Shown here: piece by piece, positions 4,033 to 16,809 of the stretch
Layout of the letters: every line of letters starts with the position of its first letter
Position numbering within the stretch: position 1 is the stretch's first letter
NCBI GenBank assembly: GCA_001724275.1
Contig: MEDZ01000003.1
Location: 219,230 to 283,229, forward strand
Length of the DNA: 64,000 nucleotides
From: Gemmatimonadetes bacterium SCN 70-22
Lineage (GTDB): Bacteria; Gemmatimonadota; Gemmatimonadetes; Gemmatimonadales; Gemmatimonadaceae
Reading direction: 5' to 3'
Program-made: the position numbers and the translations under genes
The notes under the pieces: model-generated
What the model saw: only the letters and a program-made list of their open reading frames with translations
Database searches by the model: none
Told to the model about the DNA's origin: nothing

Positions 4033-6273
4033 CTACGGGCTGGACGTCGTCGAAGCCTTCGTCTCCCGGGCCGACGCTTCGAGCGTCTGGAGCACGTCCT
4101 TCCACTGGAATTTCCCCTTGCCGAGAATCCAGTGATCCATCCACGCCTTCTCGGCGACGGACTTGAGGAGCTGGTTGCGGGGGTCGGGGATGCCGTGCGT
4201 ACTCCCGGGATACACGAAGAGTTCCGTCGGGACGCCGGCCTTGCGCAGTCCCATGTACAGCTCCTCGCTCTGGGGGCGCGGCACGCGCGGGTCGCCGTCG
4301 ACGACGTGGATCATGGTCGGCGTCTTCGCATTCTTGATGTAGCGAATGGGTGACTGCTTCCAGTATGCCTCGAAGTCGTCGTACGGCGGCTTGCCGCCCA
4401 GGTAGTTGGCCCGCACGTCCTGCATGTCGCTCTGGGCATACATCGAGATCCAGTTCGCCGTCCCGGCTCCCGAGGATGCCGCCTTGAAGCGCGTGGTATG
4501 GGTGATGATCCAGTTGGTCCAGTGGCCGCCAGCACTCCAACCCAGGACGCCCATCCGGTCACCGTCCACGAGGCCGTCGGCGATGAGCTTGTCGACGCCG
4601 GTCAGGATGTCCTCGTAGCCCTTGCGGAAGTAGTCGTTCACGATCCCCCACTTGTGCGCCTCACCGTAGTTGGTGGAGCCGCGGTAGTTGGGCTTGAGGA
4701 TCATGTAGCCGTCACCCGCATACGCTTGCGCGCCGTACCCGCCGTTGAAGGTGAGGATGTCGGCGGCCTGCGGACCGCCATGAATGGCGACGATGAGCGG
4801 ATACCGCTTGCCGGGGACGTAACCCACCGGCTTCACCAGGATGCCGCAGGCCGTCTTGCGGTCGACCGACTTCCAGCAGATCTCCTCCTCCTCGCCGAGG
4901 AGGATGTTCCCCACCTGTGGGTTGGCGTTGGTGACCTGCCGCCAGGCGCTGCGGTTGGCCACGTCTTCGGCGCGATCGACGACGAAGTGGACGGCAGGCG
5001 TCTTGGGGTCGCTGTACTGGAGCAGGATCCTTCCGCTGTCGTCGTCCTTCTGGGCGAACAGCGCGGCCCTGACGTCCGTCAGCTGCCGCACGGTGTTGGT
5101 GGTGACGTCGAGGGCGAGGAGCTGGCTGGTGGCCCTGACCCCATCGTTGAAATAGATCGTCCGCGAGTCGTCGGACCACCAGCCGATGGTCACGTCGCCG
5201 TCGTAGCCGGCGCCGAGCTTGGTGAAGGGGGTCCCCGCCGCTGAAATGGCGCGGGTGTAGACCTTGTTGGCGCGGAAGTACTTGAAGTCGTCGGAGGCCG
5301 AGAAGGCGATCGTCTTTCCGTCAGGCGCAAACGAGAGGCCGGACTCGGCGATGTTCGTGTTGTCGGTCAGGCGCTCGAGGGCGCCGCTGGAGAGGTCGAG
5401 CAGGTAGAGGTCGCTGTGGTTCCCTCCCTCGATCGTGGTGCGGGCGTAGCGGTCGTTGGGGAAGGCGCGGATCCCGGCCCACCTGCCGTCGTCCGACAGC
5501 GTGACCCCCTCCACCGAGAACTGGTCGCCTTGCGTGAGCCGCCGTTCGGCACCCGTGGCGACGTCGACGGTCCACAGGTGATTGAGCGGGATGTCCTGGT
5601 TGCGGATCCGGACATCGAACTTCCTTTCCATGCGCTCCTTGTTCGCCTGGTCGACCGAGTCGGCGGCGATGAAGTACAGTCGCTGCCCATCGTTCGAGAA
5701 GCGCCACCAGCCGACGGGTGTCGCGTGTCGCGTGAGCGGGCGCGCCTGTGCGGTGTCGATGCCGGCGAGCGGGAGCGCCATCACCTGCTGCTCGCCGTTC
5801 TTGCCGGCGGAGAAGGCGAGCCACTTGCCGTCCTTCGAGAAGGCAAACGCGCCGACGCCGTCCTTGATGTCGGTGACCCTGCGCGCCTCGCCGCCGTCGG
5901 GGCGCATCAGGTACAGTTGCTGCGTCGCCGCGCCCCCCGCGGCGTCGCGATTGCTGGCGAAGACGAAGAACGAGCCATCGGGCGCCCAGCGCGGCGACGT
6001 CTCGTTCTTGTCCTTCGTGAAGGTGAGCTGCCGGGTGCTGGCCAGCCCGTCGCGAGTGGAAACGACGTAGAGATCGGTGAAGCGCTTCGCCTCCTTCCAG
6101 TCGGGGACCGACAGGGCATAGAGGAGGCGGGTCCCGTCAGGGCTGAGCACCGGCGCGACGGCCTGCCGCAGCAACTGCTGGTCCATGAACGTCCAGGGAC
6201 GTGGCGCCTGCTGGGCACCACTCGTCGACGCGAGCACGGCAAGCGAGAGGATCGTGCAGCGAGAGCTGAGCAT
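4033..6273 (-). CDS. Secreted S9 family serine peptidase (prolyl oligopeptidase / acylaminoacyl-peptidase type)
   Basis: A 746-residue protein with a signal peptide (MLSSRCTILSLAVLASTSGAQQ). Residues about 30-450 are TolB/WD40-like propeller blades (repeated SPDG, WAPDG, SKDG, FAPDG turns). The C-terminal alpha/beta-hydrolase has the nucleophile Ser580 in GWSAGG, an Asp near 661 in DGDPRVP and a His near 693 in GSTHGIPDP. S9 enzymes cleave oligopeptides that can pass the propeller pore. With the neighbouring SusCD pair and D-aminoacylase it suggests periplasmic peptide breakdown. Length is normal for the family. A GGAG lies about 11 bp before the ATG. Confidence 0.92.
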   Translation of the reverse strand: MLSSRCTILSLAVLASTSGAQQAPRPWTFMDQQLLRQAVAPVLSPDGTRLLYALSVPDWKEAKRFTDLYVVSTRDGLASTRQLTFTKDKNETSPRWAPDGSFFVFASNRDAAGGAATQQLYLMRPDGGEARRVTDIKDGVGAFAFSKDGKWLAFSAGKNGEQQVMALPLAGIDTAQARPLTRHATPVGWWRFSNDGQRLYFIAADSVDQANKERMERKFDVRIRNQDIPLNHLWTVDVATGAERRLTQGDQFSVEGVTLSDDGRWAGIRAFPNDRYARTTIEGGNHSDLYLLDLSSGALERLTDNTNIAESGLSFAPDGKTIAFSASDDFKYFRANKVYTRAISAAGTPFTKLGAGYDGDVTIGWWSDDSRTIYFNDGVRATSQLLALDVTTNTVRQLTDVRAALFAQKDDDSGRILLQYSDPKTPAVHFVVDRAEDVANRSAWRQVTNANPQVGNILLGEEEEICWKSVDRKTACGILVKPVGYVPGKRYPLIVAIHGGPQAADILTFNGGYGAQAYAGDGYMILKPNYRGSTNYGEAHKWGIVNDYFRKGYEDILTGVDKLIADGLVDGDRMGVLGWSAGGHWTNWIITHTTRFKAASSGAGTANWISMYAQSDMQDVRANYLGGKPPYDDFEAYWKQSPIRYIKNAKTPTMIHVVDGDPRVPRPQSEELYMGLRKAGVPTELFVYPGSTHGIPDPRNQLLKSVAEKAWMDHWILGKGKFQWKDVLQTLEASARETKASTTSSP

Positions 6274-6411
6274 CTGGGGACACTCCGGGCGGGGGGCTTG
6301 TCAGGTTCCTCGAATCTTACGACGAAGCGAGGGGGGGCGCTGAAGGGAGCAGGCGAGATGGACCATCGCTCGCGCGGGGCACCCCGGCCCATGCGCCCGG
6401 GAAGACGGCAA

Positions 6412-6441
6412 CGCGGGGGCGGACGCATGTCCGCCCCCGCG
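6412..6441 (-). terminator. Perfect 13-bp GC hairpin
   Basis: Arms 6412-6424 (CGCGGGGGCGGAC) and 6429-6441 are a perfect inverted repeat with the 4-base loop GCAT. It lies 82 bp past the stop of the minus-strand gene ending at 6523 and before the S9 peptidase gene, so it should separate the two transcripts. Confidence 0.7.
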
Positions 6442-7412: not shown

Positions 7413-8786
7413 CTATGCCTTGCGATCGATGCAGCCGGTGTAGAGCTGGTTGTTGCGCTCGGCTTGGGGAACCGGGAGGTTGAGATCCGGTCCGTACTGC
7501 GCGTTCTTGCGCGGATTGAGTCCGCCTTCGCCCGGGAATACCTGGGCGGCCGTGAAGCCGTAGAGGCGGATCATGCGGCGCAGGTCACCCAGGCGCTGTC
7601 CGCGCCCGAACGTCCAGAAGGCGCGCTCCCGGAAGAGAAGCTGCTGGCGCGCCGTCGTGGAGCCCGGGTCGGTGAGGGGCGGCATCCCCGAGATCGTCAG
7701 TGCGCCGATGTTGCTTGGCCCGGCGCGCAGGGCGTTGAGCGTCGTGAGCCAGGCCGCGTTTCCGGCCGCCAGCTGCGACTCGGCCAGGATCAACTGCGCA
7801 TCCACGTAGTTGGCGACGGGGACGGGCGAGTTGAAGGCCGGGAAGACACCCTGCTGGTCGTAGGGCGTCACGCCGTCGAACCCGAAGGGGACGCCCGTGC
7901 GCTTGGAGACCGGAACGCGCGGGTCCTTGGCCGAGACGAACGGCATCGCGTTGACGATGCGCCCGCCCTGGGAATCGGCGGAGTCCTGCACCGTGTAGCG
8001 ACGCGCGGAGATCGAGAGTCCCCAGATGAGGTTGTCCTCGATGCCCTGCGAGCCTGGCCAGGTGAGGTTGAAGGTGAAGGTCGCCGGCACCTTGTCCACG
8101 GCCGCCCCGGCCTCGGGTAGCTTGCCTAACGCAAGCAGCGCGCGCCCCCGTCCCACCTGTGCCGCGTAGCGTACGCGAGTGCTGATGGAATCGGCCCCCG
8201 TTCCCACCGCGACGAGGGCGGAGTCGAACGAGGCGAGCGCGATGTTGAAGGCCGTGGGGCCGTCGATCGCTGCGGCGATGTCGGGCGTCCCGGTGGACAG
8301 GTTGGCGTACGGCTGTCCGTTGCAGAAGTCGAGTGCGGACTGCAGCTCGGCGTAACCCTTGACGAAGAACATCTCGCCAATCCTGGCCCTGGCATTCGGG
8401 CTGTACGTCTGCAGGGCCTTGGCGGCCGCGTAGGCCTGGATGCGCGTGCGATGGATCTGGCGATAGGCCACGGTCACGAGCGAGTTCTGCTCGGTCACGT
8501 TGCGCTGGTCGGTCTCGTCGCGCTGCGTGAAGGTGTCGGCCGACTTCCACTCGTCGACGAGAAGGCCGCCGTAGAACCACGAGCTCTCGTCGAGGGCGGT
8601 CATGTACTTGAAGACCTTGATGGCGCCCACGCGCATTCCCTCGGCGCCGTCGGCCGAGTTGAGGTTGTCCGGGGCGATGATGTCGGGATCGGTGACGCCG
8701 AGCAGCCGGTCGCGGGAGCACGCGGTGAGCGCGGCCACCGCGGCCGCCAGGGCGACCGCCCGATATGTCGCGATGTATCGGTTCAT
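7413..8786 (-). CDS. susD: SusD/RagB family outer-membrane nutrient-binding lipoprotein
   Basis: 457 residues. A lipoprotein signal ends in the lipobox ALTAC. The body is alpha-helical with SusD-type features: DEWKSADTFTQRDE, the YRQIHRTRIQAYAAAKAL helix, and the C-terminal FRERAFWTFGRGQRLGDLRRMIRLYG region that marks RagB/SusD proteins. These proteins cap the SusC TonB channel and bind glycan or peptide substrates at the cell surface. The ATG at 8786 is chosen because GAGGTGA lies 8 bp upstream; an in-frame GTG at 8798 is the alternative. It starts about 22 bp after the susC-like stop, so the two form one operon. A CGTTAGGC motif (8124-8131) encodes Leu-Gly here. Confidence 0.9.
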   Translation of the reverse strand: MNRYIATYRAVALAAAVAALTACSRDRLLGVTDPDIIAPDNLNSADGAEGMRVGAIKVFKYMTALDESSWFYGGLLVDEWKSADTFTQRDETDQRNVTEQNSLVTVAYRQIHRTRIQAYAAAKALQTYSPNARARIGEMFFVKGYAELQSALDFCNGQPYANLSTGTPDIAAAIDGPTAFNIALASFDSALVAVGTGADSISTRVRYAAQVGRGRALLALGKLPEAGAAVDKVPATFTFNLTWPGSQGIEDNLIWGLSISARRYTVQDSADSQGGRIVNAMPFVSAKDPRVPVSKRTGVPFGFDGVTPYDQQGVFPAFNSPVPVANYVDAQLILAESQLAAGNAAWLTTLNALRAGPSNIGALTISGMPPLTDPGSTTARQQLLFRERAFWTFGRGQRLGDLRRMIRLYGFTAAQVFPGEGGLNPRKNAQYGPDLNLPVPQAERNNQLYTGCIDRKA

Positions 8787-8808
8787 GAGAGTAGTCACCT
8801 CGCGCGGG

Positions 8809-11800
8809 TCAGAACGCGACGTTGAGTCGAAGGATGAAGTAGGTCGGGACGGGCATGGCCTGGAAGTCGCTCGGGAGCGACGACGTGGAGCCCACGTCGG
8901 AGTTGCTCTCGGGGTCGAGGCCGCTGTAGTCGGTCCAGAGCTTGAGGTTGCGGGCGGCGAAATTGAGGCTTACGTCCTTGGCCCCCCAGGCGCGCGACGT
9001 GAGCGACCGCGGAATCAGCCAGTTGGCCGATAGCTCGCGGAAGCGGACGAAGTCGGCCTTCTCCATGAAGCCCGCCTGGGTACGCGAGGCGTGCTCACGC
9101 ACCGCGACCGCGCGAGCCTGCTGCCAGAGTGGCGCCGTCCGGTCGTACGCGCCGTAGCAGTTGTTGCGGCTTCCGCAGCGGATGCGTTCGGTCCCGTTCA
9201 GCAGGTAATGCCCGCCCTTGTAGTCGAAGAGCGCCGTGACGCGGAGCTGCTTCTTGAACAGCTCGATGCTGTTGGTGAGGACGGCTTCGTAGCGAGGCAT
9301 CGAATAGCCGACGAAGGTGTTGGAGTCGTCGACCGTGATCTCGGAGAGGGTGAGGATGCCGTCGCCGTTGGCGTCGTTGTAGCCCGTGATCTTCCGTTGC
9401 CAATAGCCGAAGAGCGGGTAGCCGGGTTGGTTGCGAGTGGTGGTCCCGACTTGCGGTGCCAGCGGGCGCCCCTGCGCGTCCCTGCCGAGCGTCAGCAGTT
9501 CGTTGTCGTTGGTGGAACCGTTGATGGAGGCGTTCCAGGTGATGCGGCGGTTGTCGACGACCAGCGCATTGAGGAGCACCTCGAGCCCGCTGTTGCGTAC
9601 CGAGCCGAGGTTGGCGCGCTGGCTGGAGTTGCCGGTACCCAGTGAGGGCGGGACGACGGCGCCGACCAGGGCGTCCTTGGTGAGCTTGCGGTAGTAGGTC
9701 ACCTCGAGCGAGGCGCGGTCGTTGAAGAGGCGTGAATCGAAGCCTCCCTCGAACTCGGTCGCGCGCTCGGGCTTGAGAACGTCGTTTCCGAGCGAGGTGA
9801 ACGTGACACCGGGCTGGTCCAGGGCTGCGACGTTCGACGTGGTCGGCGAGTAGTAGCGCAGGGCGTCGTTCGGTCCTGGCTGCACCCCGGAGGCGCCATA
9901 GGCCGAGCGCAGGCGGAACTGGCTGAGCCACGAAGACCTGGGGAACCAGGGTTCATCCGAGATCACGTAGGACGCGCTGAACTTCGGGTAGTAGACGCGC
10001 TGGAAATCGGTGCCGAAGGCGCTGTTCTGGTCGGAGCGCACGGCGGCGGTGAGGAAGAGACGGTCGCGAAGGGCGACCTGCTCTTCGAGGAAGACGCCGA
10101 AGGTCTTGTTGCGGTCGAACGAGGCGTCGGCCGACTTGGTGGCGCCGCCGTCGATGGTCGTGGCGCCCGGCGTGAGGTTCGACGAGCCGGCGCCGTTGCG
10201 GTCGAAGGTGTTGTTCACCCACTGCGTCCCGACCGACGTGCGCGAGGTAACGGCGGTGAAGGGGGTGAAGGTGGCGGTGGCGATGCCGTTCAGCGTGATG
10301 GTGCGGAAGTTGGTGCGGTCGTCCTGGACGAAGCCCTGGCGCACGGTGCCGACGTCGGCGCACGTCCCGCGGCGGCAGAGCTCCTGGTCGATGCGCCCGA
10401 TGAAGTCGACGCCGGCGTCGGCGCGGACCGACAGCCAGCTCATGGGACGATAGTTGACGTTCGTCGAACCCATGTACCGATTGATGTACTGCGTGACCTC
10501 CATCTGGAACGACTCGGCCGGGGTGTTGGCCCGATAGCCGTGCAGGTCGAAGCCGAGCGTGCTGATGCGCCCCAGCTCGTAGCCCGGGCCGCCGAAGGCG
10601 TTGGAGAGAAGGCCGTAGGCGTTGTTGTCGTTCTGCGGGAGCCGGTTGGCGAGCGTGATGTAGCCCGAGGAGAACTGCGCGTCGAGCTTGGGACTGAGCG
10701 CGGCGTCGAGGTTGGCGCGGAAGGTCCCGCGCTTGAGCGCGTTCGGGGTGGCCCACTGGTCGAGGATCTTGATGTTCAGCGTGTCGAGACGCTGGCGGTC
10801 GAAGTCGGGGATCTTGAGGATCCCCTCCTCGTTCTCGTACTGCCCGCTGACGAAGTAGCGCAGCTGCTGCACGCCGCCCGACACCTGCAACCCGGCGACC
10901 TGACGGCTCCCGGTCCCCAGGGGGGTGGTGCGGTCGTTGTCGAAGAGATTGAACTTGCTGAGCGAATCGGCGAGGCAGAGGCCGCTCGAGACTTGCGTGA
11001 GCGACGTGTTCCGGCAGTTGCGTGTGGAGCCGGTGGGGGCGTGCCCCCAGAGGGTGTACGCCGTGGGCCAGGTATTGCGGTCCTGGATGAGTCCGGTCTC
11101 GCCGAAGACGTTGTAGCGCGTCGTCCCGGCGCGACCGCGCTTGGTGGTGATCACGATGACGCCGTTCGACGCGTCGGTGCCGTAGAGCGTCGCAGCTGAC
11201 GGCCCTTTCACGATTTCGATGCTCTCGATCTCGGAGGGATTGATGTCCTGGGCGCGGCTCTGGGCGGCGCCGCCCGTGAAGATGTTACCCGAGATGGAGC
11301 CGTTGTCGGAGCGCATGCGCACGCCGTCGATCACGTAGATCGGGTCGTTCACGAGCGAGATCGAGTTGACGCCGCGGATGCGGATGCGGGCGCCGACACC
11401 GGTCGCATTGCCGGGCATGACCTGCACGCCGGGCGATTGCGCCACGAGGAGCGAGGCCACGTCGGTGACGGGCGCCGTGGCCGTGCGCTGGGTGACGTCG
11501 ACGGAGGTGACGGAGTTGCCGAGCTCGACGCGCCGCTGCTCGCCCGTGGCCGTGGTGACCACCTCGGCGAGCTTGATGACCGCCTGCGCCATGTCGAAAT
11601 CGACCGTGACGTCTTGCCCGGCGGCAAGCGTCACCGACTTCTTCTGTTCGGTGTAGCCGACACGAAGCACACGCAGGTCGTACGTCCCCGCGGGGACGTT
11701 GCGCAACGTGTAGCGCCCGTCCGCACCGGTGGACGCGAAGAGCGCCGTGCCGACGACGATGACGCGCGACTCCGGGAGCGCTTCGCCGGTACCCTGCGCC

Positions 11801-11919
11801 ACCACGCGACCGGTGATCGTGCCGCCCTGGGCGACGGCGACGCTGCTCACCAGCGTGAGGAGTGCGGAGGCGGCGAGGAGAGCGCGCAATGACGCTCGAG
11901 CCTGACCGAGGACACCCAT
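8809..11919 (-). CDS. susC: SusC/RagA family TonB-linked outer-membrane receptor
   Basis: 1036 residues, normal for the family. Order: signal peptide (LLAASALLTLVSSVAVAQ), a carboxypeptidase-regulatory-like beta domain (about 33-115, GTITGRVVAQGTGEALPESRV), a plug domain with the SusC signature RIRGVNSISLVNDPIYVIDGVR (split around residue 190), then a 22-strand type barrel ending in FILRLNVAF with a C-terminal Phe. It imports large oligomers across the outer membrane with TonB energy, capped by the SusD protein encoded just downstream. A ribosome site GGAGAT precedes the ATG. The peptidases around it suggest peptides rather than glycans as substrate, but that is inference. Confidence 0.93.
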   Translation of the reverse strand: MGVLGQARASLRALLAASALLTLVSSVAVAQGGTITGRVVAQGTGEALPESRVIVVGTALFASTGADGRYTLRNVPAGTYDLRVLRVGYTEQKKSVTLAAGQDVTVDFDMAQAVIKLAEVVTTATGEQRRVELGNSVTSVDVTQRTATAPVTDVASLLVAQSPGVQVMPGNATGVGARIRIRGVNSISLVNDPIYVIDGVRMRSDNGSISGNIFTGGAAQSRAQDINPSEIESIEIVKGPSAATLYGTDASNGVIVITTKRGRAGTTRYNVFGETGLIQDRNTWPTAYTLWGHAPTGSTRNCRNTSLTQVSSGLCLADSLSKFNLFDNDRTTPLGTGSRQVAGLQVSGGVQQLRYFVSGQYENEEGILKIPDFDRQRLDTLNIKILDQWATPNALKRGTFRANLDAALSPKLDAQFSSGYITLANRLPQNDNNAYGLLSNAFGGPGYELGRISTLGFDLHGYRANTPAESFQMEVTQYINRYMGSTNVNYRPMSWLSVRADAGVDFIGRIDQELCRRGTCADVGTVRQGFVQDDRTNFRTITLNGIATATFTPFTAVTSRTSVGTQWVNNTFDRNGAGSSNLTPGATTIDGGATKSADASFDRNKTFGVFLEEQVALRDRLFLTAAVRSDQNSAFGTDFQRVYYPKFSASYVISDEPWFPRSSWLSQFRLRSAYGASGVQPGPNDALRYYSPTTSNVAALDQPGVTFTSLGNDVLKPERATEFEGGFDSRLFNDRASLEVTYYRKLTKDALVGAVVPPSLGTGNSSQRANLGSVRNSGLEVLLNALVVDNRRITWNASINGSTNDNELLTLGRDAQGRPLAPQVGTTTRNQPGYPLFGYWQRKITGYNDANGDGILTLSEITVDDSNTFVGYSMPRYEAVLTNSIELFKKQLRVTALFDYKGGHYLLNGTERIRCGSRNNCYGAYDRTAPLWQQARAVAVREHASRTQAGFMEKADFVRFRELSANWLIPRSLTSRAWGAKDVSLNFAARNLKLWTDYSGLDPESNSDVGSTSSLPSDFQAMPVPTYFILRLNVAF

Positions 11920-12299: not shown

Positions 12300-13883
12300 A
12301 TGCTTCGCCAGAATTGCCGGGCCATCTCGCTGGTTTTCCTCGCCCTCCTGTCACCGCCGGCCACGATCGACGCCCAGGCGCCGGGGCGCGCCGACCTGCT
12401 CATCCGTGGCGGAACGGTGATCGATGGGACCGGGAGCGCGGCTCGCGTCGCTGACGTCGCCATCACGGGCGATCGCATCACCTTCGTGGGCGATGCGCGC
12501 CGGCAGGGAGTGCAGGGAGGGCGCGAGATGGATGCGCGCGGGCTCATCGTCGCCCCCGGCTTCATCGACCCGCACACGCACACCTACGGAGACCTGCAGA
12601 GCGACCGGGCCGAGCGTCGGATGAACGCCCCCTACCTCATGCAGGGGGTGACGACCGTGGTCGCGGGAAGCGACGGGGGAGGCCCGGTGGACGTGGCCGA
12701 CCACTTCGCGCGGTGGGAGCAGCGCGGGATCGGCACCAATGCCGCGCTGTTCGTCGGCTTCGGGACGGTGCGCGGCAAGGTACTGGGGATGTCATCGGCG
12801 GCGCCCAACGTGGACCAGCTCTCGCTCATGAAGGCGATGGTCGGGAAGGGGGTCGACGAGGGGGCGCTGGGGCTGAGCACGGGGCTGTACTACGCACCAC
12901 AGAGCTACGCAACGACCGAGGAGGTCATCGCCGTCGCCCGCGAGGCCGCGTCGCGCGGCGGCCTGTACGATTCCCACATGCGCGACGAGAGCTCGTACAC
13001 GATCGGCCTGCTGGGGTCGATCCGCGAGATCCTCCGCATCGGCAAGGAGGCTGGCCTACCGGTCCACATCGCCCACATCAAGGCGTTAGGCATAGATGTC
13101 TGGGGGCAGAGCGACAGCGTGATCGCCCTGGTGAACCGCGCCCGCCGGGACGGGCAGCGGGTGACGGCGGACCAGTACCCGTACACCGCCAGCGGGACGG
13201 CGGTCGGGGCATCGCTGCTCCCCCGCTGGGCGGAGGCGGGGGGGCGCGACTCGCTGCGCGCGCGGATCACGAATCCGGAGTACCGCGATCGCCTGGTGGC
13301 GGAGATGCAGAACAACCTGCGCCGCCGTGGCGGGGCCAAGTCGCTCCTGATCACGGGGGGGCGCGACCGGTCGCTGGTGGGGAAGACGCTCGACGACATC
13401 GCCAGGGCGCGCAATGCGGACCCGATCCTCACCGCGCTGGAGATCATCATGAACGGCGATGCCGGCGTCGCGTCGTTCAACATGAACGAGGACGACATCG
13501 TCCGCTTCATGCGCGAGCCGTGGGTGTTCACGGGTTCGGATGGCTCCGACGGACATCCGCGCAAGTACGGGACCTATCCGCACAAGCTGCGGGAGTATGT
13601 CCTGGCACGGAAGGTCCTCACCATGGAGCAGATGGTGCAGCGGTCGAGTCGCGAGGTGGCGCTGGCGCTCGGGATGGGAGAGCGCGGGACCCTGGCGCCG
13701 GGGTACATGGCCGACGTGATCGTCTTCGACACGGCGAAGGTCGCCGACCGCGCCACGTACGAGCACCCCGAGTTGCTGGCCGAGGGGATGCAGTACGTGA
13801 TCGTCAACGGGAAGCTGGCGGTCAGCGAGGGGAAGCTGACCGGGGCGCTGGCGGGACGCCCGGTGCGGAGGGCGAAGCCGTAA
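12300..13883 (+). CDS. Secreted N-acyl-D-amino-acid deacylase-type amidohydrolase
   Basis: 527 residues with a signal peptide (AISLVFLALLSPPATIDAQ). It belongs to the amidohydrolase superfamily, D-aminoacylase branch. Seen: the entry strand ADLLIRGGTVIDGTG, the metal motif PGFIDPHTHTYGD, SHMRDESS, HIAHIKALG, and the late motif TGSDGSDGHPRKYGTYP carrying the catalytic Asp. The C-terminal beta part reads GTLAPGYMADVIVFD. Such enzymes release D-amino acids or dipeptides from N-acylated forms. The HIAHIKALG stretch uses a rare TTA codon inside a CGTTAGGC motif (13084-13091). The next gene starts 10 bp downstream, so the two probably form an operon. Confidence 0.88.
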   Translation: MLRQNCRAISLVFLALLSPPATIDAQAPGRADLLIRGGTVIDGTGSAARVADVAITGDRITFVGDARRQGVQGGREMDARGLIVAPGFIDPHTHTYGDLQSDRAERRMNAPYLMQGVTTVVAGSDGGGPVDVADHFARWEQRGIGTNAALFVGFGTVRGKVLGMSSAAPNVDQLSLMKAMVGKGVDEGALGLSTGLYYAPQSYATTEEVIAVAREAASRGGLYDSHMRDESSYTIGLLGSIREILRIGKEAGLPVHIAHIKALGIDVWGQSDSVIALVNRARRDGQRVTADQYPYTASGTAVGASLLPRWAEAGGRDSLRARITNPEYRDRLVAEMQNNLRRRGGAKSLLITGGRDRSLVGKTLDDIARARNADPILTALEIIMNGDAGVASFNMNEDDIVRFMREPWVFTGSDGSDGHPRKYGTYPHKLREYVLARKVLTMEQMVQRSSREVALALGMGERGTLAPGYMADVIVFDTAKVADRATYEHPELLAEGMQYVIVNGKLAVSEGKLTGALAGRPVRRAKP

Positions 13884-13893
13884 CTTCCGGGGC

Positions 13894-16809
13894 ATGACGC
13901 CTCGTTTCCGCGCGGCTCCCTTGCCTCGGTCGTCCCGTCGCACGCGCGTCGTGCGGGGGCGGCTCCTGACGGTACTGGCCCTCGTCACCGCGCTGGCTGT
14001 GGGGGCACGGAGCGCCCGGGCGCAGGTTCCGATCCTCTACGCGCTCTCCGCGCAGCAGAATCCTCCGGGGATCCACTGGCGGCGCATCGACACGCCGCAC
14101 TTCACCGTTGTCTTTCCGCAGGTGCTCGACCGCGAGGCGCAACGGGCGGCCACGCTGCTGGAGCGGGCGTACGAGCCGCTGACTCGGTCGCTCGCCAGCC
14201 GGCCCGAGCGGATCCCCGTCGTGCTCAACAGCAGCTCGATGATGTCCAATGGCTTCGTGGCGTGGGGGCCGCGCCGTTCGCAGTGGTATGCGATGCCCAA
14301 CACCACGGTGGACATGATGGGGCCGGTGGAGTGGTATTCGCTCCTTGCGGTGCACGAAGGGCGCCACATCGTGCAGGAACGCGCGGTCCGTACCGGGATC
14401 ATCGGCATTCTCTCGCGACTCTTCGGCGACAACACGACGGCGTTCTTCGGCGGGGCGTTGTACTTCCCGGCGTGGTTCTGGGAAGGGGATGCGGTGGGGA
14501 TGGAGACCGCGCTCACCGCCGACGGCCGCGGGCGGCAGCCCAGCTTCGGGCAACGCATCCGCGCGCTCACGCTCGATGGGCGTCGCTATCCGTACTACCC
14601 GGCGTGGCAGGGATCCTACCGCACGTACTACCCCGATTGGTACGAGCTCGGCTACGCCCTCACGACGCACGTCCGCCGCACCTACGGCGATTCGGCCTGG
14701 CGACGCGTCATCGAGCGGGCGGCACGGAACCCCATCGCTCCGCAGGCGCTGGGCAGGGCGCTGGAGCGCGAGACGGGGCGGACGCTGGTGGAGCTGCATG
14801 GCGACGCGGCCAGGACGCTCGATTCACTGTGGCGCATGCAGCAGGCCACGATCGTCGAAACGCCGGCGCGCGTCCAGAATCATTCCGCGGCCGACTACCG
14901 CGAGTTCACGCTGCCGCAGTACGCCGCCGACGGGAGCATCATCGCCCTGTACCAGGACCTCGCCACCACCAAGCGGCTGGTACGTATCCGCAACGGGTCG
15001 GTCGAGGTGCTGCACGCCACCATCGGTCTCTATGGCGAGCTGCAATTCCAGGTGCGGGGCAAGACCGTCGTCTGGAGCGAGTACGAGGTGTCGCCGCGCT
15101 GGGGAGAAGAGAGCTACCTGGTGGTCAAGACGCTCGACCTGGAGTCGCGCACCGTGCGGCGCCTTACCGACCGGTCGCGCTACTTCGCCCCCGCGTTGTC
15201 TCCCGACGGCGCGCGCATCGCGGCCGTGCACTTCTCGCCCTCGCGCGAGGCGCGGATCGCCGTGCTGGACGCCGTGACCGGCGCCGAGCTCCGCCGCTTG
15301 CCTAACGAAGCGGGGCACTTCCTGGTGACCCCGGCGTGGGCCCCCGATGGGCGGGCGCTGTATGTCGTCGCGGTCGACGCGTCGAGGGGCAACGCGCTGG
15401 TGCGCCTGCGGCTCGACGGGTCGCCGGCCGATACGCTCATCCCCTTCACCCACGCGACCATCTCTCGGCCGGTGGCGACGGCGACCCACGTCTACTTCGG
15501 GAGCACGCGATCCGGGGTGGACAACATTCATGCGCTCGACCTCGCGACGGGAGCCATTCTGCAGGTCACCTCGCGACGGTTGGGGGCCATGTGGCCGAGC
15601 GTCTCGCCCGGGGGCGACTCGCTCACCTTCAGCGACTACTCGGTTCACGGCTACGACGTGGCGACGATGGCGCTCGACTCCTCGCGTTTCACTCCCGTGA
15701 CGCTTGGCGCCGCCCCGACTCCACCGTTCGCCGCAGCACTGCAGGGGCAGGAGCGCGACGGCAACCTCCTCGACGCCCTCCCCGCAGGGGGATGGGCGTC
15801 GCGCCCCTTCACCGGCTGGTCGCGCCTGTTCGACTTCCACTCGCTCTCCCTTGCCCCCACGAGCGATGGGGTGAACACGGGGCTCGCCTTCGAGTCGCGC
15901 AACCTCTTGAACACGCTGGGCGTGATCATCGGCCCGACGTTCAACACGAACGAGGGCACGCTCGCCCTCGAGGGAGGGGTGAGCTACGCGGGGCTCCCCG
16001 TCATCGCCGACGTTTCCGGGCGGCTCGGGACGCGCGCCTCCACCTTCAGCGATACGCTCGGGGCGCAGCAGGTGTACACCTGGCGCGAGCGGTCCGCGGT
16101 CGCGAGGTTCCGCCTTCCCCTCACCCGCCTGCGCGGGCAGGTGCGCCAGTCGCTGGTGGCGAGCGCCGCCCTGGGACGCACGCACATCGGGGAGCAGCCG
16201 GTCGCCTTCCGATTCGAGAACGGGAATGGGGACTTCGGGACGGCCCGCTACACCCTTACCGCGTCGACCGTGCGCGCCGCGCCCCACCGGGCGCTGTATC
16301 CCGTCGGCGCGGTGCTCAACGCGGTGTACTCCCACACGCCGTTCGGCGGCGACTACAGTTCGCACCAGGTATCGCTCAGCGGGGCCGCGTACCTCCCCGG
16401 CCTTCGTCCCGAGCATGCCCTGGTGATCGACGCCGGTCGCGAGGACGAACGGCCGGGCAACTATCGCTTCTCGTCGTGGCTGCGATTCCCGCGCGGGTAC
16501 GAGACGCGATATCACGAGGCGCTCGTGCGGGGAGGGGCGACGTATCACCTGCCGCTCTTCTACCCGGATGCCGCGTTAGGCAACTGGCTCTACCTGCGGC
16601 GCGTGCAGGGCAACCTCTTCGGTGATGCCGGGGTGGGTGCGGCGCGTGATGGCACGCAGCGCGTGCGCTATCGCTCCGTCGGGAGCGAGGTCACGGTCGA
16701 CGTCTCGCCGTTCGGATTGCGTGCCACCGTGCGCCTCGGGGTGCGCGTGACGCGCACGCTGACGAATGGCGGGCGCACCGTGGCGGAGCCGGTCGTGATC
16801 GTACAGTGA
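13894..16809 (+). CDS. HExxH peptidase-like domain fused to a TolB-like propeller and a C-terminal beta-barrel
   Basis: 971 residues with a signal peptide ending ARAQ. Residues about 50-300 hold a gluzincin-like site: His154-Glu-Gly-Arg-His158 in LLAVHEGRHIVQ, and Glu197 in WFWEGDAVGME, 38 residues later, as the likely third zinc ligand. Residues about 320-620 are propeller blades (SPDGARIAAVHF, APDGRALYVV, SPGGDSLTFSD). The last 300 residues are alternating aromatic/glycine strands typical of an outer-membrane barrel (TGLAFESRNLL, NWLYLRRVQGNLFGDAG, RATVRLGVRV). A surface-anchored or barrel-tethered peptidase is the natural reading. I recognise no named family for the whole chain. A CGTTAGGC motif (16574-16581) again encodes Leu-Gly. 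Confidence 0.75.
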   Translation: MTPRFRAAPLPRSSRRTRVVRGRLLTVLALVTALAVGARSARAQVPILYALSAQQNPPGIHWRRIDTPHFTVVFPQVLDREAQRAATLLERAYEPLTRSLASRPERIPVVLNSSSMMSNGFVAWGPRRSQWYAMPNTTVDMMGPVEWYSLLAVHEGRHIVQERAVRTGIIGILSRLFGDNTTAFFGGALYFPAWFWEGDAVGMETALTADGRGRQPSFGQRIRALTLDGRRYPYYPAWQGSYRTYYPDWYELGYALTTHVRRTYGDSAWRRVIERAARNPIAPQALGRALERETGRTLVELHGDAARTLDSLWRMQQATIVETPARVQNHSAADYREFTLPQYAADGSIIALYQDLATTKRLVRIRNGSVEVLHATIGLYGELQFQVRGKTVVWSEYEVSPRWGEESYLVVKTLDLESRTVRRLTDRSRYFAPALSPDGARIAAVHFSPSREARIAVLDAVTGAELRRLPNEAGHFLVTPAWAPDGRALYVVAVDASRGNALVRLRLDGSPADTLIPFTHATISRPVATATHVYFGSTRSGVDNIHALDLATGAILQVTSRRLGAMWPSVSPGGDSLTFSDYSVHGYDVATMALDSSRFTPVTLGAAPTPPFAAALQGQERDGNLLDALPAGGWASRPFTGWSRLFDFHSLSLAPTSDGVNTGLAFESRNLLNTLGVIIGPTFNTNEGTLALEGGVSYAGLPVIADVSGRLGTRASTFSDTLGAQQVYTWRERSAVARFRLPLTRLRGQVRQSLVASAALGRTHIGEQPVAFRFENGNGDFGTARYTLTASTVRAAPHRALYPVGAVLNAVYSHTPFGGDYSSHQVSLSGAAYLPGLRPEHALVIDAGREDERPGNYRFSSWLRFPRGYETRYHEALVRGGATYHLPLFYPDAALGNWLYLRRVQGNLFGDAGVGAARDGTQRVRYRSVGSEVTVDVSPFGLRATVRLGVRVTRTLTNGGRTVAEPVVIVQ

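Follow-up and report, generated by a model that had tools for sequence, protein, structure and literature searches.

Omp85 barrels orient their N-terminal POTRA domains into the periplasm and carry the loop-6 motif (V/I)RG(F/Y) (PMC8292188). A number of Omp85 subfamilies whose N-terminal domains are unusual are still uncharacterised; in PlpD, the patatin domain was long believed to be delivered to the surface, but it is periplasmic (PMC11116518). In 2014, Heinz and Lithgow gave the name WD40-Omp85 to the subfamily of chains that join a propeller to an Omp85 barrel, and their survey also admits subfamilies lacking POTRA domains (PMC4104836). The survey describes a 'metalloprotease' ('Metallo') Omp85 subfamily defined by PF00149, which is Metallophos, a different family. 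Because of this definition, the members of that subfamily are suggested to be phosphoesterases rather than proteases.

The window, which is the whole stretch of 64,000 nucleotides analysed, encodes a 971-aa protein in which a propeller lies immediately before an Omp85 barrel, as in the WD40-Omp85 chains. Sequence profiles, models and fold searches confirm that it consists of a signal peptide, an HExxH...E zinc-peptidase domain, a TolB-like propeller and a 16-strand barrel. The proposal of an earlier note, that one chain combines a peptidase, a propeller and its own outer-membrane barrel, is thereby borne out. The features of the gene are the following:

13894..16809, + strand: peptidase-propeller-Omp85 protein of 971 aa, ORF P0001 (ORF, homologue search, alignment)
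13894..14025, + strand: predicted signal peptide, residues 1-44 (hydrophobic segment, then SARAQ)
14032..14868, + strand: gluzincin-type peptidase domain, residues 47-325 (alignment; hhalign of the family profile against soluble Peptidase_MA_2)
14353..14367, + strand: predicted zinc-binding motif HEGRH, residues 154-158 (H, E and H invariant in 24/24 homologues)
14482..14484, + strand: Glu197 in WEGDA, candidate third zinc ligand (invariant in 24/24)
14854..15687, + strand: TolB-like beta-propeller, residues about 321-598 (profile, PDB and structure-model matches)
15838..16803, + strand: 16-strand Omp85-type outer-membrane barrel, residues 649-970 (models, fold search, profiles)
16492..16500, + strand: RGY (residues 867-869) from the loop-6 motif of Omp85, located in the loop that joins strand 11 to strand 12 (alignment, barrel model; motif per PMC8292188)

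Domains of the chain

The protein starts with a likely Sec signal, with cleavage at SARA|Q at about residue 44. PD40, which describes the propeller repeats, is the sole Pfam family above cut-off, and the peptidase and the barrel of the window protein are therefore dark to the curated families.

The pattern HExxH...W-x-x-E-G is characteristic of the gluzincin zinc peptidases. The combination that defines this group (Peptidase MA), an HExxH motif with a downstream Glu ligand, is present in the window protein as His154, Glu155, His158 and Glu197, exactly where the earlier note had placed the site. All four residues are invariant in the 24 homologues of the conservation alignment, together with Trp194, Gly198, Glu204 and Tyr250. 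Such invariance, in an alignment reaching down to about 20% overall identity, is not due to chance, and in other families of Gemmatimonadota the loci also retain HExxH and WxxEG. Against soluble Peptidase_MA_2 proteins from these bacteria, the peptidase profile of the family reaches 98.2% (hhalign), the barrel-bearing members having been taken out of the target before the comparison. The profile of the window clade itself reaches 99.8% against the distant core family and 97.8% against a second peptidase-propeller-Omp85 family, but only 5% against the soluble set. In the Pfam scan, the window protein stays below the PF13485 cut-off, which a relative in genome G036 passes with 34.7 bits in the genome search. 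PDB sequence searches with the family peptidase profile returned nothing significant. The earlier note had named structure prediction as its check, and the outcome was divided: the models contain the 16-strand barrel, but the peptidase region did not fold confidently (pLDDT about 25-45 near the active site and mostly below 50 over the region). For this reason, the assignment and the geometry of the predicted zinc site rest on the sequence profiles.

The propeller matches TIGR02800 (E=2e-14) and TolB in the PDB (E=6e-13), and residues about 321-598 of the model align to TolB at Z 24-25, in agreement with the TolB-like propeller read earlier from the sequence. The fold search with the full-length model gave matches to the propeller alone, and the barrel was therefore folded separately.

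Two models, one of the whole chain and one of residues 612-971 alone, were both built from five sequences, and both contain 16 long strands, although the confidence of the barrel model is low (pLDDT 54). The membrane beta-barrel of about 300 residues that had been suspected is thus found. The 20 best Foldseek PDB matches of the barrel model all belong to the Omp85 superfamily (E 8e-5 to 2e-3) and include BamA, Sam50, TamA, FhaC and CdiB, and structural alignment (VIA) gives a Z of 17.2 to BamA compared with 14.7 to the best unrelated porin. The family barrel profile matches BamA/TamA-type barrels at 95.8%, with 0.1% for the SusC control. The barrel of the window clade taken directly matches Omp85 at 5%, so that the profile link runs via the wider family: the clade matches the wider family at 96.8%, which in turn matches Omp85 at 94.1%. 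PDB sequence searches with the family barrel profile gave nothing significant. Among related chains, those of G000 C6 and G008 lie above the curated Omp85 cut-off, and a 957-aa frame in G036 exceeds the cut-offs of both Peptidase_MA_2 and Omp85.

The residues invariant in the barrel of the 24 homologues are Arg867-Gly868, Asp911, Gly930, Glu932 and Gly949. The first two belong to the loop-6 motif, which appears as PRGY at residues 866-869 in the 24-residue loop joining strands 11 and 12; its R and G are kept in 24/24, and the preceding residue, P in the window protein, is mostly V or L in the relatives. The C-terminal Phe of the relatives is mostly absent from the window clade. Pfam scans of the window protein detected no POTRA domain, the N-terminal region being occupied by the peptidase and the propeller. 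The strand number, the loop-6 motif, the PDB matches and the profile link through the wider family together assign the barrel to the Omp85 (BamA/TamA/FhaC) class.

Distribution, evolution and gene neighbourhood

A search of 60 related genomes found close orthologues with 50-79% identity, two more at 33-36%, and many distant relatives in open frames of about 1000 aa. A match to the peptidase domain is present in 296/298 sampled Gemmatimonadota genomes (255/256 of those of good quality), and the weaker of these matches may be other gluzincins. From other families of the phylum, 18 distant core-family loci were chosen by their N-terminal match alone, and all 18 carry the family barrel in the same frame, with E below 1e-55 and 3e-17 for one locus cut by the contig end. 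They usually have V/L-RG-Y/F and the terminal Phe. In another two loci, the chain is of the second family and has the barrel of that family. The three-part build, the spread of which the earlier note had proposed to follow, is therefore near-universal in Gemmatimonadota, and it is not rare. Outside the phylum, the plasmid search returned a Salinibacter homologue only, and a scan of IMG/VR found no relative.

The core version of the gene often has the same neighbours. In 16 loci, a gene for Amidase_3 (N-acetylmuramoyl-L-alanine amidase) lies directly upstream on the same strand, with possible start codons of the core gene at -4, -1 or +1 nt from the amidase in 8 of them, and a ribonucleotide reductase gene is commonly found 3' of the core gene. 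A PP2C phosphatase, a Ser/Thr protein kinase and a zinc-ribbon protein adjoin the gene pair (L042:369-4342 and similar loci), and given the kinase and phosphatase, phosphorylation may control envelope remodelling.

The core version tracks the species tree. In the window's genome, its slot between amidase and reductase is empty (L185, G000:C35:20000-33000, positions 5924-6418), the two genes being separated by about 500 bp, too short for the 3 kb core gene. The slot is likewise empty in G002 and G013, which carry the window-type gene, and also in G008 and G032, which do not. A core copy was found in none of the six well-covered carriers of the window-type gene. Among the 23 other genomes in the family, 17 have one (Fisher p=0.002, shared ancestry ignored). 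In the tree, from which the badly cut row G076/L171 was disregarded, the window-type genes form a separate, fast-evolving clade on a stem of 1.5 changes per site. The description of the window protein as a plain orthologue of the core gene was rejected on account of this long separate stem. Replacement of the core gene by a divergent lineage would be the better description, with long-branch effects being possible.

The window's genome also encodes two more peptidase-propeller-Omp85 paralogues, L153:1502-4660 (- strand, C6) and L154:1126-4551 (+ strand, C15). Both are members of the second family; they have the motif HELVH...EGMAEYLS and match Omp85 more clearly: the C6 paralogue exceeds the curated Omp85 cut-off with E=1e-8, and the C15 paralogue matches the BamA model TIGR03303 at 1e-6. 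A 1014-aa relative in the same genome (G000 C22, L152:1107-4148, - strand) has a HEYGH peptidase and a PD40 propeller, and no Omp85 barrel was detected in it; its orthologues are in G013 and G030, and G002 and G020 contain similar frames.

The window-type gene has different neighbours:

12300..13883, + strand: secreted amidohydrolase (D-aminoacylase-like, Amidohydro_3), 10 nt upstream (conserved neighbour)
8809..11919, - strand: SusC/TonB-dependent receptor (neighbour conserved within the genus only)
7413..8798, - strand: SusD-like lipoprotein, as assigned in the earlier note (no Pfam match)

The D-aminoacylase-like gene and SusC, both named earlier as neighbours, are thus present, while the SusD-like gene is without any Pfam match; the adjoining SusC is typical. 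The D-aminoacylase-like gene lies directly upstream in all orthologue loci (at least 50% identity) whose contig extends there, at a spacing of about 10 nt or less in several. Since the downstream genes are syntenic too, this pairing may in part be general synteny. The linkage to SusCD is not conserved in this way; beyond the three species of the genus, the pair was not found beside the gene.

Topology and proposed function

The loops of the barrel model differ between the two sides. Those connecting odd to even strands have a mean length of 9.8 residues and include loops of 18, 11 and 24, whereas the even-to-odd turns have a mean of 6.7, and the loop-6 RGY lies on the long-loop side. Such an arrangement fits a periplasmic N-terminus. 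As an Omp85-type barrel keeps its N-terminal domains in the periplasm, the peptidase and the propeller are probably located there, on an outer-membrane-anchored peptidase.

The explanation that best covers the whole, and which is considered likely, is a zinc peptidase that is anchored in the outer membrane and faces the periplasm. The chain would be exported via Sec, and its C-terminal 16-strand barrel of the Omp85 type would insert in the outer membrane with the N-terminus inside. His154, His158 and Glu197 would serve as zinc ligands and Glu155 as the general base, and the HExxH...E domain would cleave periplasmic substrates, either peptides or envelope polymers that contain peptides. The TolB-like propeller, placed between the enzyme and the barrel, would be a module for docking or for the gating of substrates. 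The core version would most likely work with the murein amidase encoded upstream in remodelling of the peptidoglycan and the outer membrane. The diverged version of the window would most likely have assumed the role of the core version, or have specialised on peptides containing D-amino acids jointly with the secreted D-aminoacylase-like enzyme whose gene lies 10 nt upstream. More tentatively, the near-universal Gemmatimonadota protein could couple an Omp85 barrel to proteolysis and, through the neighbouring murein amidase, to peptidoglycan cutting, and so be a peptidase machine that is tethered to the outer membrane and remodels the envelope. These bacteria may thus have a physical coupling between outer-membrane barrels, proteolysis and the cutting of the wall.

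The main rival is an assembly factor of outer-membrane proteins with built-in quality control, in which the barrel inserts or holds clients and the peptidase clears the failures, as BamA and BepA in one chain. The conserved loop-6 motif would suit this role, BAM-bound LptD is a target of the periplasmic Zn-peptidase BepA in E. coli (PMC8423444), and Heinz and Lithgow liken WD40-Omp85 to a BamA-BamB fusion (PMC4104836). However, typical BamA-like Omp85 proteins (about 750-880 aa) are encoded in the same genomes, and the core version adjoins a murein amidase rather than an assembly gene, and this explanation is considered unlikely.

Clearly less probable is the 'surface digestive machine' of the earlier note, with the enzyme held on the outside by the barrel and peptides fed to the adjoining SusCD importer. 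The SusCD and amidohydrolase genes do adjoin the gene, and Omp85 relatives of the TpsB type transport proteins outward (PMC4104836). Against it stand the periplasmic placement implied by an Omp85-type barrel with N-terminal domains, as proved for PlpD (PMC11116518), the pairing of the core relatives with a murein amidase, whose peptidoglycan substrate is periplasmic, and the restriction of SusCD to the genus while the aminoacylase pairing is kept more widely. The surface-digestion reading, which the sequence alone invites, is therefore probably wrong and is corrected here. Still slightly less probable is a pseudo-enzyme scaffold whose peptidase fold binds partners and has lost cutting, for although the window clade evolves fast (the long stem described above), HExxH and Glu197 are invariant in all 24 homologues, this clade included.

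Comparison with known systems

The proposed periplasmic peptidase shares features with several described proteins. PlpD, the patatin-Omp85 protein (PMC11116518), likewise carries a hydrolase ahead of its Omp85 barrel and keeps it in the periplasm, but it combines a patatin lipase with POTRA where the window protein has a predicted zinc peptidase and a propeller. BepA, the M48 Zn-peptidase at the BAM complex (PMC8423444), is similar as a periplasmic zinc peptidase at an Omp85 barrel, yet it is a separate protein, unfused to a propeller or barrel. The soluble Pfam Peptidase_MA_2 (PF13485) proteins share the HExxH...W-x-x-E core, as expressed in the family profile match given above, and those compared are devoid of the Omp85 barrel. 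WP_118831798 from a Salinibacter ruber plasmid ('basic secretory protein-like') has a HELVH...EG peptidase and a TolB propeller, but is 633 aa long and without a barrel.

With WD40-Omp85 (PMC4104836), the window protein shares both the TolB-like propeller directly N-terminal to the Omp85 barrel and the absence of POTRA. No mention of an HExxH peptidase domain on such chains was found in the accessible part of the survey or in a search of other open literature. If the proposed function is true, an Omp85 subfamily so far without any such role gains a concrete enzymatic one, and the invariant predicted zinc-peptidase site on propeller-Omp85 chains throughout the phylum turns the subfamily into a testable enzyme. 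Judged from sequence, the closest known kind thus appears to be the uncharacterised WD40-Omp85 subfamily, and what seems new here is the HExxH peptidase domain on such chains.
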